NCBI GenBank assembly: GCA_016709335.1
Contig: JADJNC010000009.1
Coordinates: forward strand, 66,712-130,711
Length of the DNA stretch: 64,000 nt
Direction: 5' to 3'
Origin: Candidatus Propionivibrio dominans
Lineage (GTDB): Bacteria > Pseudomonadota > Gammaproteobacteria > Burkholderiales > Rhodocyclaceae
Shown in pieces: positions 7,521-53,226 of this stretch (position 1 is the first letter of the stretch; every line of letters starts with the position of its first letter). Below the pieces are notes generated by a model, which was given only the letters and a program-made list of their open reading frames with translations, had not been told where the DNA came from and did not search any database. A program made the translations under genes and the position numbers.

Positions 7521-7637
7521 TTAGGGAGCCGCCGAGCAAGTGTCTATACGTCATTCCAGCGAACGCCGGAATCCAGAAAATTCAAGGTACTGGACACCGG
7601 CTTCTGCCGGTGTGACGGCTTATTCAGCGTTTCCTTA
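7521..7637 (-). repeat. Family-2 TIR element, copy 1 (about 115 bp)
   Basis: On the minus strand it starts with terminal repeat AAGGAAACGCTGAATAAG and ends with a degenerate inverse copy (CTTGCTCGGCGGCTCCCTAA). Inside are two REP-like palindromes, one around CACCGGCAGAAGCCGGTG and one around the CCGGAATCC/GGAATGACG pair. Related copies lie at 19913-20071 and 28565-28677. Confidence 0.7.
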
Positions 7638-19912: not shown

Positions 19913-20071
19913 GGGAAACGTTGAATAAGCCGTCACACCGGCGGAAGCCGGTGTCCAGTGCCTTGACTTATCTGGATGCCGGCTTTTGCCCCGAAGGTGA
20001 AAGGTCATATGGTTCAAATACCGCTAGGGTGCGCCGGAATGACGTTTTGATACTTGTTCAGCGGTTCCTTA
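19913..20071 (+). repeat. Family-2 TIR element, copy 2, overlapping the stop of the gamma-subunit gene
   Basis: Left end GGGAAACGTTGAATAAG, right end CTTGTTCAGCGGTTCCTTA (inverted). Internal palindromes are CACCGGCGGAAGCCGGTG and a CCGGCTTTTGCC/GCCGGAATGACG pair separated by a unique stretch. The right terminus contains, on the minus strand, the TAA that ends the gamma-subunit reading frame (CGC TAA GGAACC). Confidence 0.65.
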
Positions 20072-21962: not shown

Positions 21963-23426
21963 GTGAAGCCGTGGACAGCGCCACAGCAAGCTCAGCCATG
22001 GGTTTCCGCCTTGACTCGCTGGGCCACCAACAGCCCTGTCGCCGCAACGGGTTTGGCCCTGGTGCTGGTGGCTCTGGTCGCAACACTCGACCATGCCACC
22101 GGCTACGAGTTGCGCTTCGCCATGCTCTATCTGATACCGATCGCCCTGGCGACGTGGGCCGGTGGCTTGCGCGCGGGCGTAGCGATTGTTGTGCTATCCA
22201 GCTTTTTCTGGCTGGTGAGTTTTGGCTCTTCCCACCCGTATTCAGGCGACTTTTTCTTCTACTGGGAAGGCGTTGTGATGGTCGTCGTATATATTGCCTT
22301 CGTTTTATTGCTGGCACGCCTGCGGGTCGCGTTGACCCGGGCCGACGAGCGCTTCGTGCGGGTGCTCGAGGAATTGCACGCCGCAGTTTATGTTGCTGAC
22401 CAGGATAGCGGCAGAATCCTTTATGCCAATCGCAGCCTCGCGCGCATGATCGACGCCGAACCTGGCGCACTGAGCGCAGATGAACTGGGCAAACGCTTTG
22501 GCCTCGGCGAGGCCAACGCCGGGAGTACGCCCGGCGAAGACAAAGAATCGAGCACGGCGCAAATCGTCGCGCGCGAAGTGCGCGACCCTATAAGCGGCCG
22601 TTGGTACCTGGTACAGGTCGTTCCGATCCCGTGGAAATCCAGCCGGCGCGTCAGCGTCCAGGTGATCACCGATATCTCCGAAAAGAAGCGTGCAAAAGCT
22701 TTGAAACAGCAACATCAGGACATGTTGCACCAGACCGCCCGCCTGGCGGCGCTGGCGGAGATTGCCTCCTCTCTGGCCCACGAAGTCAACCAGCCCTTGA
22801 TGGCCATCGCCAGCTATAACGACGCTTGCCTGCGCATGCTGGCCGCGCCCGGTATCGAAAAGAAGGAACTCGTCACCGCCCTGAAGCGCAGCCGCGAGCA
22901 AGCTCTGCGGGCAGGAAAAATCATCAGCCGTGTGCGTGACTTCATTCGCAGCAGACGTCCGAGTCCAACTCATTTTGATATCAATGCACTGATACGTGAA
23001 TCGCTGGAACTCCTGGAGACCCAACTGGAAGACAATGCGGTGACAGCCGAGTTGTCCTTGTCCGAAGCCCCACTGATGACCCATGCCGACCGTACCCTGC
23101 TACTCCAGGTTATCGTGAATCTGCTGCAGAACGCCATCGATGCCATGGAAGAAACAGAGCCATCCTGTCGGCAACTCGAGGTGTCGAGCACCGAGGCAGC
23201 GGATGGTGCCATCGTTGTCTCTGTTTCCGATCAGGGCGTGGGTATTCCCGAAGAGATCGCCGTTCGGCTTTACACACCTTTATTTACCACCAAGTCCCAT
23301 GGCCTGGGCCTCGGGCTGTCGATCTGCCGCTCGGTTGTCGAGGCGCACGGTGGTCGCATATGGCATAGCGCAGACCCGGTCAGCGGGTGCACCTTTCACT
23401 TCACCTTGCCCCCGGAGATCGATTGA
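21963..23426 (+). CDS. PAS-domain sensor histidine kinase
   Basis: 487 residues. An N-terminal membrane region with about four hydrophobic segments (residues 28-120) is followed by a PAS domain (about 135-240, FVRVLEELHAAVYVADQDSG), HisKA with the phospho-acceptor His in SSLAHEVNQPLMAIASY, and HATPase_c with the N-box NLLQNAIDAM, DQGVGIPEEI and GLGLGLSICRSVVEAHGG. This layout is that of FixL/DctS-type kinases. The stop overlaps the regulator's ATG (ATGA). Its neighbour is a decarboxylase Na+ pump, so the stimulus may be a dicarboxylate or malonate; this is inference. Confidence 0.9.
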   Translation: MKPWTAPQQAQPWVSALTRWATNSPVAATGLALVLVALVATLDHATGYELRFAMLYLIPIALATWAGGLRAGVAIVVLSSFFWLVSFGSSHPYSGDFFFYWEGVVMVVVYIAFVLLLARLRVALTRADERFVRVLEELHAAVYVADQDSGRILYANRSLARMIDAEPGALSADELGKRFGLGEANAGSTPGEDKESSTAQIVAREVRDPISGRWYLVQVVPIPWKSSRRVSVQVITDISEKKRAKALKQQHQDMLHQTARLAALAEIASSLAHEVNQPLMAIASYNDACLRMLAAPGIEKKELVTALKRSREQALRAGKIISRVRDFIRSRRPSPTHFDINALIRESLELLETQLEDNAVTAELSLSEAPLMTHADRTLLLQVIVNLLQNAIDAMEETEPSCRQLEVSSTEAADGAIVVSVSDQGVGIPEEIAVRLYTPLFTTKSHGLGLGLSICRSVVEAHGGRIWHSADPVSGCTFHFTLPPEID

Positions 23427-24061
23427 TGAAATTGCACGATAACGGGAACACAGTATTTGTCGTGGACGACGATGCGGCCGTTTGCGATGCGCTCGGGATG
23501 CTGCTGCGGACAGCCGGGATGGAAGTCGAGACTTTCCGCTCAGCCGCTTCTTTCCTGAAAGAGCTACGCCCTGGGCAGACGGGCTGCCTGGTGCTGGACA
23601 TCCGCATGCCCGGAATGAGCGGACTTGATCTGCAGGACGAATTGCACAGGCGCAAAATTTACATCCCTATCGTTTTTCTTACCGGACACGGCGATGTTCC
23701 AATGGCGGTGCGTGCGCTGAAGAAAGGTGCCGTCGATTTCATCGAGAAGCCCCATGAAGCGGAGCGGTTGGTTCTGGCGGTACTCAACGCCTTGCGCATG
23801 GACGATGAACGGCGCAAACAGACTAACCGGCATGGCGATTTATCTCTTGATCTGGCGACCCGTCTGGCAACGCTTTCCGAGCGCGAACGGGAAGTTCTGA
23901 ACCGAATTCTTGAGGGCAAGCAGACCCGTCAGATCACCGACGAGTTGTGCATCAGTGTCAAGACCGTTGAATTTCACCGTGCCCGCATCAGGGAAAAGCT
24001 TGGCGTCACAACGCAAGCCCAGTTGTTCAGCCTTTTCATAGCGTCGGAGGGCGATGCTTGA
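23426..24061 (+). CDS. FixJ/NarL-type response regulator
   Basis: 211 residues. Receiver domain with acidic pocket VFVVDDDAAV, phospho-accepting Asp in CLVLDIRMPGMSGLDL and conserved Lys in DFIEKP. The C-terminal LuxR-type HTH is LSEREREVLNRILEGK, ending VKTVEFHRARIREKLG. Start ATG 23426 overlaps the kinase stop. Probably the cognate partner of that kinase. The DNA immediately downstream is the abnormal T-free segment. Confidence 0.92.
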   Translation: MKLHDNGNTVFVVDDDAAVCDALGMLLRTAGMEVETFRSAASFLKELRPGQTGCLVLDIRMPGMSGLDLQDELHRRKIYIPIVFLTGHGDVPMAVRALKKGAVDFIEKPHEAERLVLAVLNALRMDDERRKQTNRHGDLSLDLATRLATLSEREREVLNRILEGKQTRQITDELCISVKTVEFHRARIREKLGVTTQAQLFSLFIASEGDA

Positions 24062-24105
24062 AGCGTGCAGTTTGCCGGTGTGCGCTTGCCGACTTTGCGA
24101 TGGAT

Positions 24106-25008
24106 AAAACGGCCCCCCGCCGCCGCGCCGCGGCGCACCGAAGGAGCGCCGCCGCGCGGCACGCCCGGGGGCGCGGGACGACGCGGGGCGGCGCCACGCC
24201 GGCGGGGGAGGGCAACAGAGGCCGCCGGCACCGCGGAGGCAGACACAGCGGGAAACAGGGGGCCCCCCGGGGCGCGGGCCGGCCGCGCGCGACCGGCGAC
24301 GCCGCCAGGCAGGCCGGGCGGGGGGGGGGCGCGGGCGAGCACGGGGCGCGCCGGCGCGGCCCGCCGGCCGCCGACCCGGGCCCGCGCGCGGGGGCAGCGG
24401 CCGACGCGCCCCAGCGCGGGCAGCCCCGGCGGGGCCGGACCGCCGGCGCCGCCGCCGCGGCCCCCAGCGCGGGCCCCCCGGCGCGGGGCCGGGGGCGGCC
24501 GGAGGCACGTCGAGCCGCCGAGCCGCCGGGGGGCCGCGGCGGGCGCGAGGGCGGGCCCGGCGCCCGGCCGGCGGCGGCCGGCGCGCCGCGAAGGGCAGGC
24601 CCGCGGGCGCCGCCGGGAAGAACCCCACCCGGCCGGGGCCCGCCCCGCAGACGGGCCGGGCCGGGGCGCGCCGCGGCGCACAGCGCGCGGCCGGCGCCCC
24701 GGCCGCGAGCGGCGGCCCGGCCGCACGCAGCGCGCGGGCCGGGCCCGGAACCGAGGCCGCCGCCGGGAGGCCGCCCCGGAGCGCGACAGCGGAGAGCCCC
24801 CGCGCGGCGAACAGGCGGCCCGGGCGCGCCGCGGGGCGCGGGCGCCCGGCCGGCGCGGCCGCCCGGGGGGGCGCGGGGGGGGGGGCGCGGGGGGGCGGGG
24901 GGGGGGGGGGGAGGGGGGCCGGGGCGCGGGGCAGGGGCCGGGGGGGGGGGGGGGGGGGGGAAAGGGGCAAAAAAAAAAAAAAAACCGGGGACCCAAACCC
25001 ACAAACCC
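24106..25008. other. Abnormal T-depleted, G+C-saturated segment, probable sequencing/assembly artefact
   Basis: From 24106 to 25008 the plus strand contains exactly one T (24510). The segment is almost pure G and C with scattered A. Its right end degenerates through runs of G (24898-24911 and 24941-24960) into A16 (24969-24984). Flanking DNA is ordinary. Long open frames appear in all directions only because stop codons need T or A; their products are Ala/Arg/Gly/Pro repeats and are not genes. The gradual loss of complexity from right to left looks like the failing tail of a read built into the consensus. Confidence 0.8.
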
Positions 25009-25109
25009 TCCACTAGGCATCCTGCGCCAACAGGCAGCAGGGGACGTTAAAATTGCCTTGTTTCTCGCCGTTCCGACGCGCTGGACAGAGTATGCTTTGA
25101 TAGCTGCGG

Positions 25110-26237
25110 CTAACAAACCGAAGCCATTCGTTCCAGAGCACAATCCAGCGTTGTACGCGGGCAGCCGAAATTGAGTCGCACCCAGCCCGGCAAACCGAAA
25201 TCTCCGCCACTCGACAAGCCGACGCCGGCGGCTTCAAAGAATGTCGCCGGATCGGCCACACCGAGACCGCGCGCGTCAATCCAGGCCAGATAGGTGGCTT
25301 CGACGTGCGTCATGGACAATCCGGGAATGGCCGCAACGGCCGACTCGACGCGATCCCGGTTGGCGCGCAGTGTGCCGATCAGCGCCGCGTGCCACTCGTC
25401 GCAGTCACGATAGGCGGCTTCGCAGGCCGCCAGTCCGAGGGTATTCACGTGCGGAACGATGCCGCGCATCGCCCCGGTAAAACGGCGCCGCAGCGTTGCA
25501 TCGGATATCACCGCCAGGGCACAGCCGAGGCCGGGAATGTTGTAGGTCTTGGATGGCGCTATCAGGGTGATGCAGCGGCGGGCAATTTCGGCATCGATCA
25601 TCGCCAGCGGGATATGCCGGCGTTCGGCATCGAGGATCAGACCGCAATGAATTTCGTCGGAACAGACCGTCAGATCGTGGCGCTGGCAAAAGTCGGCGAG
25701 CGCGGCCAGCTCGTGCAGATGCCAGGCTCGGCCGACCGGATTATGCGGGTGGCAAAGCAGCAACAGGCCGCTTTCGGGCGTCAGCGCGGCTTCCAGCGCG
25801 GCGAAATCCCAGACCCACTGGCCATCCTGCAAACGCAAGCTCGCCTTTACCAGCTTGCGCCCGGACAGATGCGGCGCCGAGAGGAAAGGCGGATAGACCG
25901 GCGTCGCCGTCAGCACACTCCCCTCCACCGCGCGACAGGCGACGTTGATTCCGGTGACCAGCCCGGGCAACCAGACCAGCCATTCCGGCTCGACGTGCCA
26001 GTGGTACTCGCGCTGCAAGTGCCCGAGCACGGCGTCGATCAACGACGGCCAGGCTTCCGAGTAACCGAAATGTTGCTGCGCAACGCGTTGCTGTAACGCT
26101 GAGACGACGGCCGGCGGCGCTGCGAAATCCATATCGGCGACCCACAGCGGCACTACGTCGCGACCGGCGTATTTGTTCCACTTCAGCGAGTCGCCCCCGC
26201 GACGCTCGATCAGGCGGCCAAAGTCGAAGTCACTCAA
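25110..26237 (-). CDS. patB: MalY/PatB family PLP aminotransferase (cystathionine beta-lyase-like)
   Basis: About 375 residues, fold-type I PLP enzyme of the MalY/PatB group. The N-terminal signature RRGGDSLKWNKY then VVPLWVADMDF is typical; HPHNPVGRAW and the PLP-lysine segment LIAPSKTYNIPGLGCA are clear. It would cleave cystathionine or related C-S substrates. The start is taken as TTG 26237, because family similarity begins at FDFGRLIERR and the upstream cysK gene ends at 26249; it is not certain. Pairing with cysK and sbp suggests sulfur amino-acid metabolism. Confidence 0.85.
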   Translation of the reverse strand: MSDFDFGRLIERRGGDSLKWNKYAGRDVVPLWVADMDFAAPPAVVSALQQRVAQQHFGYSEAWPSLIDAVLGHLQREYHWHVEPEWLVWLPGLVTGINVACRAVEGSVLTATPVYPPFLSAPHLSGRKLVKASLRLQDGQWVWDFAALEAALTPESGLLLLCHPHNPVGRAWHLHELAALADFCQRHDLTVCSDEIHCGLILDAERRHIPLAMIDAEIARRCITLIAPSKTYNIPGLGCALAVISDATLRRRFTGAMRGIVPHVNTLGLAACEAAYRDCDEWHAALIGTLRANRDRVESAVAAIPGLSMTHVEATYLAWIDARGLGVADPATFFEAAGVGLSSGGDFGLPGWVRLNFGCPRTTLDCALERMASVC

Positions 26238-26248
26238 TCGCTTGCCCG

Positions 26249-27187
26249 TCAGACTTCGAGGTGGGCGTAGAGCTGGGTTGACAGGTAACGCTCGCCGAAC
26301 GAGGGGATGATCACCACCGTCAGCTTGCCGGCATTCTCCGGACGTCTGGCCACCATGAAGGCCGCCCACACGGCGGCGCCCGAGGAAATGCCGACCAGCA
26401 GCCCTTCATCGGTCGCCATGCGGCGTGCGGTGGCGAAGGCATCGTCCGCCGTGACGCGCACGACTTCATCATAAACGGCGGTATTCAATATTTTCGGGAC
26501 GAAACCGGCGCCGATGCCCTGAAGCGGGTGTGGTCCCTTGGCCCCGCCGGAGAGCACCGGCGACGCATCGGGTTCAACGGCGACGATCTGTACACCCGGC
26601 TTGCGCTCCTTGAGCACTTCGCCAACGCCGGTAATGGTGCCGCCGGTGCCGATGCCGGAAACGAAAATATCCACCTGCCCGTCGGTATCGCGCCAGATCT
26701 CCTCGGCCGTGGTAGCGCGATGAATCGCCGGATTGGCCGGATTTTCAAACTGTTGCGGAATGAAATAGCGCGCGTCGCCCGCCGCCATCTCCTCGGCACG
26801 CCGGATGGCGCCGCCCATGCCGTCCGGACCCGGCGTCAGCACCAGGTCGGCGCCGTAGGCCTTGAGCAGCAGGCGACGCTCACGGCTCATCGTTTCCGGC
26901 ATGACAAAGCAGCACTTGATGCCGTGTGCCGCGCAGACCATGGCCAGGCCAATTCCGGTATTACCCGACGTCGGCTCCAGAACGATGGTCTCCGCACCAA
27001 TCCGGCCCGCCGCCTGCGCGGCATCGATCATGGCGGAGGCGATTCGATCCTTGACGCTATGCGCCGGATTGAAGAACTCCAGCTTGACCGCCACGGTACC
27101 GTTGATGCCGGTAGCGAGGCGATTGAGACGGAGCAGCGGCGTATTGCCGATCAGGTCGGTCACAGAATTGGCGATTTTCAGGGGCAT
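26249..27187 (-). CDS. cysK: Cysteine synthase A (O-acetylserine sulfhydrylase)
   Basis: Forms cysteine from O-acetylserine and sulfide. 312 residues. PLP-binding Lys in [11 protein letters not shown] (residue about 43), [13 protein letters not shown], the phosphate-binding loop [14 protein letters not shown], and the substrate-side SSGAAVWAA. The C-terminus [15 protein letters not shown] is the usual CysK end. Directly followed by patB, probably in one transcript. Confidence 0.92.
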
Positions 27188-27303
27188 TTTGAGTTTTCCT
27201 CCGGGATGAAGTCAGGTGTGTAGTCTAGTCGGGAATCGCTGCGCGGGGAATGTCTTAGGAACGACTACGAAATAACCTTCTGAATTCTGGAACTGACAAT
27301 CCA

Positions 27304-27416
27304 GTAGGTCGGGTTAGCGTAGCGTCCCCCAGGAGGATTTGCTTCGCAGCATAACCCGACGGCAGTGTATGCCGTAACCAACGATTGTCGGGTTACGCTG
27401 CGCTAACCCGACCTAC
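27304..27416. repeat. Family-3 palindromic repeat between cysK and sbp
   Basis: Arms GTAGGTCGGGTTAGCG and CGCTAACCCGACCTAC face each other, with an inner GGAGGATTTGCTTCGCAGCA tract and ATAACCCGAC. A single-arm copy with the same TCCCCCAGGAGGATTTGC core is at 53172-53226. May act as a hairpin between convergently or serially read sulfur genes. Confidence 0.65.
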
Positions 27417-27455
27417 GAAGGGTCTCTAGTCCCGAATCGCGGCGTGGGGAATGTC

Positions 27456-28564: not shown

Positions 28565-28677
28565 GAGTAACACTGAATAAGTCGTCACACCGGCGGAAGC
28601 CGGTGTCCATTGCCTTGAATTTCCTGGATTCCGGTTTCCGCCGGAATGACGTTTTAGACTTGAGCAGCGGCTCCTCA
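28565..28677 (+). repeat. Family-2 TIR element, copy 3, overlapping the ilvA stop
   Basis: Left end AACACTGAATAAG, right end CTTGAGCAGCGGCTCCTCA. Inside are CACCGGCGGAAGCCGGTG and CCGGTTTCCGCCGGAATGACG. On the minus strand the terminus reads GAC TGA GGAGCCGCTG, where TGA is the ilvA stop codon. Confidence 0.7.
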
Positions 28678-40921: not shown

Positions 40922-41491
40922 ATGCTGGTCGATGCGGCACTCGGATGCGTCAATCATCTTCTCGCGGGCGAAGATTGGGCACGCCAGCGCCTCATGGCTT
41001 TTGTCGGGCAGACAGCACGCCTTGAACTCGGCGCGCTGAGCCTGCCGCTTGAAATCACCACCTCCGGATACTTCGCTGCGGGCGACAGGAGTACTGCAGC
41101 GAACGTTACACTGAAGCTGCCTGCCGATGCACCATTACTTGTGCTGACTGATCGCCCCGCGTTGCGTGCCGCAACGCAGATCAGCGGCGCAGCCGAACTG
41201 GCGGAGAGCCTCGGATTTGTTTTCCGCAATCTGCGCTGGGATGCCGAAAGTGATCTGGCGTTGCTGACGGGTGACATCGCCGCCCGACGACTGCTTGACG
41301 GCGGCAAGCAACTGGTCAATTGGCATCAGCAGCAGGCCAGAAATCTGGCACTGGGTCTGGCCGAGTATTTCACCGAGGAAAATCCGACTATCGCCCGCCA
41401 TCAGGACGTTTCCACTTTCTGCCGGGAAATCAGCAACCTGCAGGAGGACCTGGCTGAACTCGAAAAACGGGTGACAAGCCTCGAAGGCTGA
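40922..41491 (+). CDS. ubiJ: Ubiquinone biosynthesis accessory protein UbiJ (SCP2 domain)
   Basis: 189 residues. The N-terminal SCP2-like lipid-binding domain (LGCVNHLLAGEDWARQRLMA to about 110) is followed by a helical C-terminus ending in the coiled-coil-like ISNLQEDLAELEKRVTSLEG. UbiJ is an accessory of the aerobic ubiquinone-synthesis complex. GTG 40919 directly precedes ATG 40922; ATG is preferred. UbiB, usually next, is absent here because a terminator and the convergent atp operon follow. Confidence 0.88.
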   Translation: MLVDAALGCVNHLLAGEDWARQRLMAFVGQTARLELGALSLPLEITTSGYFAAGDRSTAANVTLKLPADAPLLVLTDRPALRAATQISGAAELAESLGFVFRNLRWDAESDLALLTGDIAARRLLDGGKQLVNWHQQQARNLALGLAEYFTEENPTIARHQDVSTFCREISNLQEDLAELEKRVTSLEG

Positions 41492-41543
41492 GCGAATAAT
41501 TCGAAGGCAGGTGTCGCCCTGCCTGATGCGCAGGCCGGATGTG

Positions 41544-41576
41544 AAGAAGGCAGGCGTTGCCACCTGCCTTCTTTAA
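41544..41576. terminator. Bidirectional intrinsic terminator between ubiJ and atpC
   Basis: Perfect 11-base stem AAGAAGGCAGG / CCTGCCTTCTT with an 8-base loop (41544-41573), T-rich on both strands. It lies between convergent ubiJ and atp operons and can serve both. Confidence 0.85.
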
Positions 41577-41587
41577 GTGTCCTGAGT

Positions 41588-42016
41588 TCAGGATCCAGGG
41601 CGTTTGCGTAATTTCTTGATTGCGTGCAACTGAGCGACTGCCTGCGCCAGTTCCGCTTCTGCCGAAGCGTAGTTGGTATCCGAAGCGCGATTCTTCAGTG
41701 CTTCTTCGGCATGCTGCTTGGCCGCGATGGACTTGGCCTCATCCAGATCGTGGGCACGAATCGCCGTGTCGGAGAGCAGAGTAATCAGCGTCGGCTGCAC
41801 TTCTAGCACACCGCCGGAGACATAGATCAGCTCAAAATCTTCGTGATCGGGTATCTTCAGACGAACGGTACCCGGTTTGATACGAGTCAGCAGCGGGGTA
41901 TGACGCGGGTAGATGCCCAACTCACCGGCTTCTCCAGGAAATACCGCGAACTCGGTCTCGCCGGAATAAATCAGTTCCTCGGCACTAACTACGTCAACAT
42001 GAACTCTGAGTGGCAT
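41588..42016 (-). CDS. atpC: F1Fo ATP synthase epsilon subunit
   Basis: 142 residues. N-terminal beta-sandwich ([49 protein letters not shown]) and a C-terminal two-helix hairpin ([20 protein letters not shown]) that can inhibit F1. Last gene of the atp operon, ending just before the shared terminator. Confidence 0.93.
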
Positions 42017-53171: not shown

Positions 53172-53226
53172 AGGTCGGGTTGGCGAAGCGTCCCCCAGGA
53201 GGATTTGCTTCGCAGCATAACCCGAC
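53172..53226 (+). repeat. Family-3 repeat, half copy
   Basis: AGGTCGGGTTGGCGAAGCGT, CCCCCAGGAGGATTTGC and TTCGCAGCATAACCCGAC match the left half of 27304-27416. The right arm is missing. TCGGGTT/AACCCGA can still form a hairpin. Confidence 0.6.

Follow-up and report, generated by a model that had tools for sequence, protein, structure and literature searches.

A largely T-free segment of 941 bases between a response regulator gene and a patB-like gene of Candidatus Propionivibrio dominans is probably long-read base-calling noise kept in the assembly

We analyzed a window of 64 kb from a contig of Candidatus Propionivibrio dominans, in which a T-poor segment lies between two convergent genes. 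The genes to its left encode a histidine kinase (21963-23426) and a FixJ-type response regulator (23387..24061, plus strand). The regulator gene is intact, with nearly full Response_reg and GerE profiles, and the 211-residue form of the protein probably starts at 23426. The protein was 98% identical over 94% to protein P0001, and the FixJ label was also found in the source names of its protein matches. To the right lies an intact patB/malY-like gene of the aminotransferase fold on the minus strand (25110..26369; Aminotran_1_2, profile positions 2-360 of 361), followed by a PLP-dependent, cysK-like gene and a solute-binding protein gene. The names patB and cysK follow the preliminary description of this DNA or general usage. 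All flanking genes looked intact. A frameshift check of 20 open reading frames showed Pfam matches in 12, none of which looked broken, and the remaining eight were three frames from the T-poor segment and five overlapping frames. The 12 genes with Pfam matches look intact, so that outside the segment the window is accurate, which counts against the long-read origin proposed below. Searches of the window for tRNAs and Rfam families found nothing. Intergenic repeats were also observed: a palindromic repeat of the GTCGGGTTA...TAACCCGAC type at 27290-27420, with a partial second copy of 55 bases (96%) at 53172-53226, and a repeat with CCGGCGGAA/TTCCGCCGG arms at 28565-28660, with further copies near 7548-7627 and 19922-19966. 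The repeats at 27290-27420 and 28565-28660 are absent from the matching places of L001, the contig of a relative described below.

Direct counting of positions 24106-25008 (903 bases) gave 451 G, 350 C, 101 A and 1 T, corresponding to 88.7% G+C. The preliminary description had reported a single T at 24510, near-saturating G+C, long G runs and an A16 tract, and the counts agree with it exactly. The sole T splits the block into T-free runs of 404 and 498 bases, and the longest T-free run elsewhere in the window is 42 bases. With independent bases assumed at the window T content of 20.9%, a 498-base T-free run has a probability of roughly 1e-51 per start position. The homopolymers of at least 7 bases in the block were G10 (24320), G7 (24865), G11 (24875), G7 (24889), G15 (24897), G21 (24940) and A16 (24969), and those elsewhere in the window reach 9 at most. 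The neighboring DNA is normal, as had also been stated, with 44-65% G+C per kilobase in the rest of the window. The signature belongs to one strand (101 A versus 1 T) and extends over 903 bases, exceeding the length of a short read.

Read along the plus strand, the segment begins with a plateau of ~750 bases (24110..24860) of random-looking G and C with ~9% A and the single T, in which no 3-periodicity was found and in which repeats and folding were at the level of shuffled sequences. The plateau is followed by a zone of G runs of 7, 11, 7, 15 and 21 (24861..24967), by the A16 run (24969..24984) and by an A/C stutter (24985..25008) leading back to normal sequence, the next T being at 25009. 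The motif TAAAA stands at the left edge (24105..24109) and again at 25048-25052. These five A/T bases are a candidate target-site duplication and may be due to chance, or may reflect a short re-read of the junction.

Relatives were collected by patB, and the best 80 of 116 were headed by Propionivibrio and Accumulibacter MAGs. The closest relative found among these 80 was a 5.4-kb contig (L001) of Propionivibrio MAG-195 (G001), which aligned at 95% nucleotide identity over 25037-27257, including patB (96% identical), and at 90% with the regulator end. The match in the gapped alignment ended at 24105 and resumed at 25047. Nothing of the relative remained unaligned at this point and no flank base was lost, indicating that the foreign stretch is 24106-25046 (plus strand), a clean net insertion of 941 bases compared to MAG-195. 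The extent of 24106-25008 given in the preliminary description thus holds for the composition but not for the right end, since the foreign stretch includes 38 further bases (25009..25046) that look normal and are also absent from L001. These bases may represent noise during the recovery of the read, or else the border of a small genuine insertion. A search with 24996-25047 against the window and 97 loci gave no convincing match, the best other match among the best 14 being 14 bases long (E 0.17).

The same gapless junction in L001 implies that the regulator and patB genes are neighbors in MAG-195. Their adjacency had earlier been called not secure, a doubt that the direct joining in L001 does not support. 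One caution comes from a second MAG-195 contig (L096, contig 68 of G001), which carries a second copy of the regulator end followed by other sequence, so that the adjacency is shown by one of two MAG-195 contigs. The ends of this 9.1-kb contig (1-348 and 8947-9111) matched the regulator end and middle at ~90-92%, and other genes lie between the two regulator-like ends. A second copy of the regulator, a mixture of strains or an assembly error could account for this pattern. A second Propionivibrio assembly (G002, locus L008) has the convergent regulator/patB pair with one gene of 926 residues between, which appeared GGDEF/EAL-like by eye. The regulator-patB order is supported, and the arrangement of a FixJ-type regulator convergent with patB is usable as it stands.

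The segment looks like untemplated noise, with random order, no codon rhythm and no relatives. The period-3 power of 24110-24850 was 0.09, compared to a shuffle mean of 0.57 and to values of 6.47 for the regulator gene and 4.48 for part of patB, and thus no 3-periodicity was found there. Repeats of 8- to 14-mers in the same interval were about as common as in shuffles, and alternation between G and C was slightly above them (0.548 versus 0.500, sd 0.019). Folding of 24106-24860 was the same as that of 20 shuffles (z 0.09). Inverted repeats amounted to a raw count of 34 pairs in the segment. Of the 25 pairs listed, several had arms near both plateau ends, such as 24110-24139 paired with 24823-24852 (77% complementary), but none had its arms at 24106 and 25046. 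We also asked whether 24106-24860 has a template in the window, on either side of the segment, or in 80 loci. Eight models were applied (unchanged; T lost; A and T lost; T>G,A>C; T>C,A>G; T>G; T>C; T>A), and every model was run alongside one reversed and five shuffled controls. In no case did the segment rise clearly above these controls; the T>G model came nearest to a lead with 102 bits, when its reversed control scored 100 and the shuffles 92.4 or less.

Searches of phages and plasmids with the segment gave no match. With 1.7 kb around the segment none was found in phages, and with 9 kb around it the plasmid matches listed (8 records) covered the solute-binding gene region only. The MAG-195 genome gave no match to the segment. 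Among the 45 genomes from which the loci came, 13 showed matches, each of them short (25-85 bases). The four best were read by eye, and three were natural GC-rich sequence, while the top one was a T-free block in G002. The block yields open frames of 330 and 369 residues on the plus strand and of 376, 389 and 325 on the minus strand, in accordance with the earlier statement that spurious frames of over 300 codons arise on both strands (five, of 325-389 codons). A Pfam scan of three of these five frames found no match, and hence no transposase or other recognizable gene of an insertion sequence or other mobile element in them. Two of the five frames were compared with proteins. Among the 7,978 and 7,972 candidates scored, no relative of either frame reached E≤0.001, and the pollution of databases that had been predicted was thus not seen for these two. 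Because five false open frames arise from it, the block is unfit for annotation, and no biological feature should be annotated at 24106-25046.

G002 is the Propionivibrio MAG EsbE_18-Q3-R3-47_MAXAC.131, and its contig 1 (1,088,421 bases) contains three T-free blocks of 67-281 bases with G runs of 9-17. T is missing from the plus strand in two of them, apart from a single T in the longest, and from the minus strand in the third. Block 1 (41328-41608; L116 1328-1608) is a mid-contig stretch of 281 bases with one T, a G17 and an A9. In the relative Ca. P. aalborgensis (G004), 32 bases correspond to 375 of G002, whereas MAG-195, the second relative in which both flanks were present, has 282 other bases versus 389 in G002, so that a net insertion is clear only against G004. 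The left flank of block 1, ATTGACGACGATTC, recurs just past the block by eye, as if the junction had been read twice, and the TAAAA edges of the window segment may be a weaker case of the same. Block 3 (219455-219521; L124 19455-19521) is also a net insertion compared to G004 (126 bases versus 46), the other relatives matching one flank only. At block 2 (102776-102860; L119 2776-2860), four of five relatives aligned across and were 26-37 bases longer than G002, and parts of the block resemble a degraded reading of conserved sequence, which it overwrites. Since blocks 1 and 3 insert and block 2 overwrites, the same kind of failure can apparently either add or replace letters. The whole of contig 1 contains 11 runs of at least 55 bases lacking one base, four of which form the three blocks, and the other seven appeared natural by eye. 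Its only two homopolymers of at least 11 bases each lie in a T-free block. When the window block was included, the A fraction rose after the longest G run in all four blocks, though by little in block 2 (0.29 to 0.32), and the longest A run followed the longest G run in only three of the four. The resemblance of the G002 blocks to the window block is strong: T is missing from one strand (with one T in the longest), G runs of 9-17 are present, the blocks lie mid-contig and return to ordinary sequence, and two of the three are net insertions versus G004. They differ from the window block in being 67-281 rather than 903 bases long, in being richer in A in two of three cases and in that one of them overwrites.

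We scored T-poor, G-rich segments by log odds, with a threshold of at least 15 plus a homopolymer run of at least 8. The scan of 1.49 Mb of G002 recovered the three blocks (scores 20-54, runs 9-17) and none in contig 2 (400 kb). A control scan of 2.42 Mb of other, mixed DNA (79 loci, 800 kb of G026 and 400 kb of G006) gave no segment with a run of at least 8, and without the run filter it gave six, with runs all ≤5. The probability that all three blocks fell in G002 by chance was p 0.055, so the higher rate in G002 than in the mixed controls is only suggestive. With block 1 of G002 as the query, the sole match among 28 genomes of the genus was G002 itself, and the two matches among 399 genomes of the order were G002 itself and a poly-G contig end. 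The G-run end of the window segment matched two of the 399 genomes, at the same poly-G end and at a natural C-rich repeat, in a search that was insensitive because at most two candidates were scored per genome, and that missed G002. In IMG/VR, five stretches had a G14 with 112 T-free bases after it; two of these lie mid-contig and the other three at the ends of contigs. Mid-contig blocks of G/C runs were observed in two IMG/VR contigs (L081 1741-1873 and L082 3107-3278), and five loci (L083-L085, L111/L112) carry poly-G or poly-C blocks at contig ends. These tails share with the window block the G/C-only runs with no obvious biological counterpart, but they are nearly pure homopolymer and terminate contigs.

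We consider it virtually certain that 24106-25046 is an assembly artifact of some kind. The preliminary description had proposed a failed read, and the artifact part of that proposal is borne out by the empty site in L001, the random structure and the three similar blocks in G002, as well as by the searches of phages, plasmids and 45 genomes, which gave nothing beyond short matches. The failed read can be specified further: most likely, part of a long read consists of mis-called signal that came in a burst. Such a base-calling failure, kept in the consensus, is the probable explanation of the segment; we infer that the window belongs to an assembly of long reads, probably nanopore reads, and likewise the physical cause of the failure. 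A long single-molecule read crossing the regulator-patB junction would have met an abnormal signal (a stall, a partial block or a baseline shift), at which the base-caller would have emitted random G, C and A with almost no T, then G runs and then an A run, before the calls returned to real sequence at the same point of the molecule. Thin coverage, or polishing reads that could not be mapped to nonsense, may then have led the assembler to keep the letters of that read. That one strand lacks T over 903 bases speaks against an origin from short reads of both strands and for a single long molecule that was read once, and the clean insertion without loss fits a stalled molecule while the base-caller kept emitting. 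The MAG name format of G002 matches that of a study of sludge MAGs (Singleton et al. 2021, PMC8012365) and, together with the methods of that study, fits a long-read origin of G002. The methods comprise PromethION reads called with Guppy 2.2.3 flip-flop, assembly by Canu with corMinCoverage=0, and polishing by Racon with --include-unpolished, medaka and Racon with Illumina reads; such Canu and Racon settings could let single-read noise through. T-free noise was not found described in the literature, as represented mostly by titles and abstract openings, which is weak evidence of absence.

Other origins of the letters are less consistent with these data. A capillary (Sanger) read with a failed T channel or failed resolution, used to close a gap between contigs, is unlikely. 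A full capillary trace is ~900 letters long, and a failing one starts as good sequence, develops long runs and ends in noise; the block has the length of one such trace and, read on the minus strand, follows the same course. However, the real sequences flanking the block abut without overlap or loss, as would hardly be expected of a patched gap, and similar blocks lie in the middle of a contig in a MAG that appears to derive from nanopore reads. Assembly into the contig of two-color Illumina noise, in which dark cycles turn T into G and A into C, is highly improbable. Loss of the shared channel in two-color chemistry would remove T and thin out A, as observed here, and poly-G or poly-C blocks do occur at the contig ends of L083-L085 and L111/L112. 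Short reads of both strands, however, could hardly produce a one-strand lack of T over 903 bases, and the T>G,A>C image matched 24106-24860 no better than the controls (389 versus 378-391 bits) in the window and 80 loci, the scope of that test.

The segment could also derive from real DNA. A strain-specific insertion, such as a palindromic intergenic repeat, across which the read failed and of which 25009-25046 is the edge, is very unlikely. The intergenic repeats at 27290-27420 and 28565-28660 are absent from L001, the 38 bases are normal in composition yet missing there, and TAAAA stands at both edges; against this, the matches listed for 24996-25047 in the window and loci were short words only (best E 0.17). 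We regard a true T-free chromosomal insertion as scarcely credible. Although the insertion is clean and may carry a direct repeat of 5 bases, neither a gene family nor relatives nor any periodicity were found, the 25 of 34 inverted-repeat pairs listed include none with arms at the edges (24106/25046), and similar blocks occur at unrelated places in G002, one of them overwriting conserved sequence. Untemplated synthesis would account for the random order of the letters, their bias toward G and C and the single-base streaks, but real DNA made by a polymerase with almost no dTTP and inserted between the regulator and patB genes is equally hard to credit.

Because the score marked the three G002 blocks and nothing in 2.42 Mb of controls, a T-poor stretch (A-poor on the other strand) scoring at least 15 with a run of at least 8 is usable as a simple quality test. 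If raw data confirm long-read base-calling noise, a screen of public long-read MAGs could look for further blocks of this kind. A related defect appears in an assembler benchmark (PMC6966772), in which "glitches", local breaks in the continuity of long reads, were simulated with Badread. The glitches described there were simulated at 0-100 bases, as opposed to 941 here, and the window block differs from them in its strong composition signature, with no T on one strand and with G runs. Like the noise proposed for the window segment, they are junk inside an otherwise good long read and are able to disturb an assembly.
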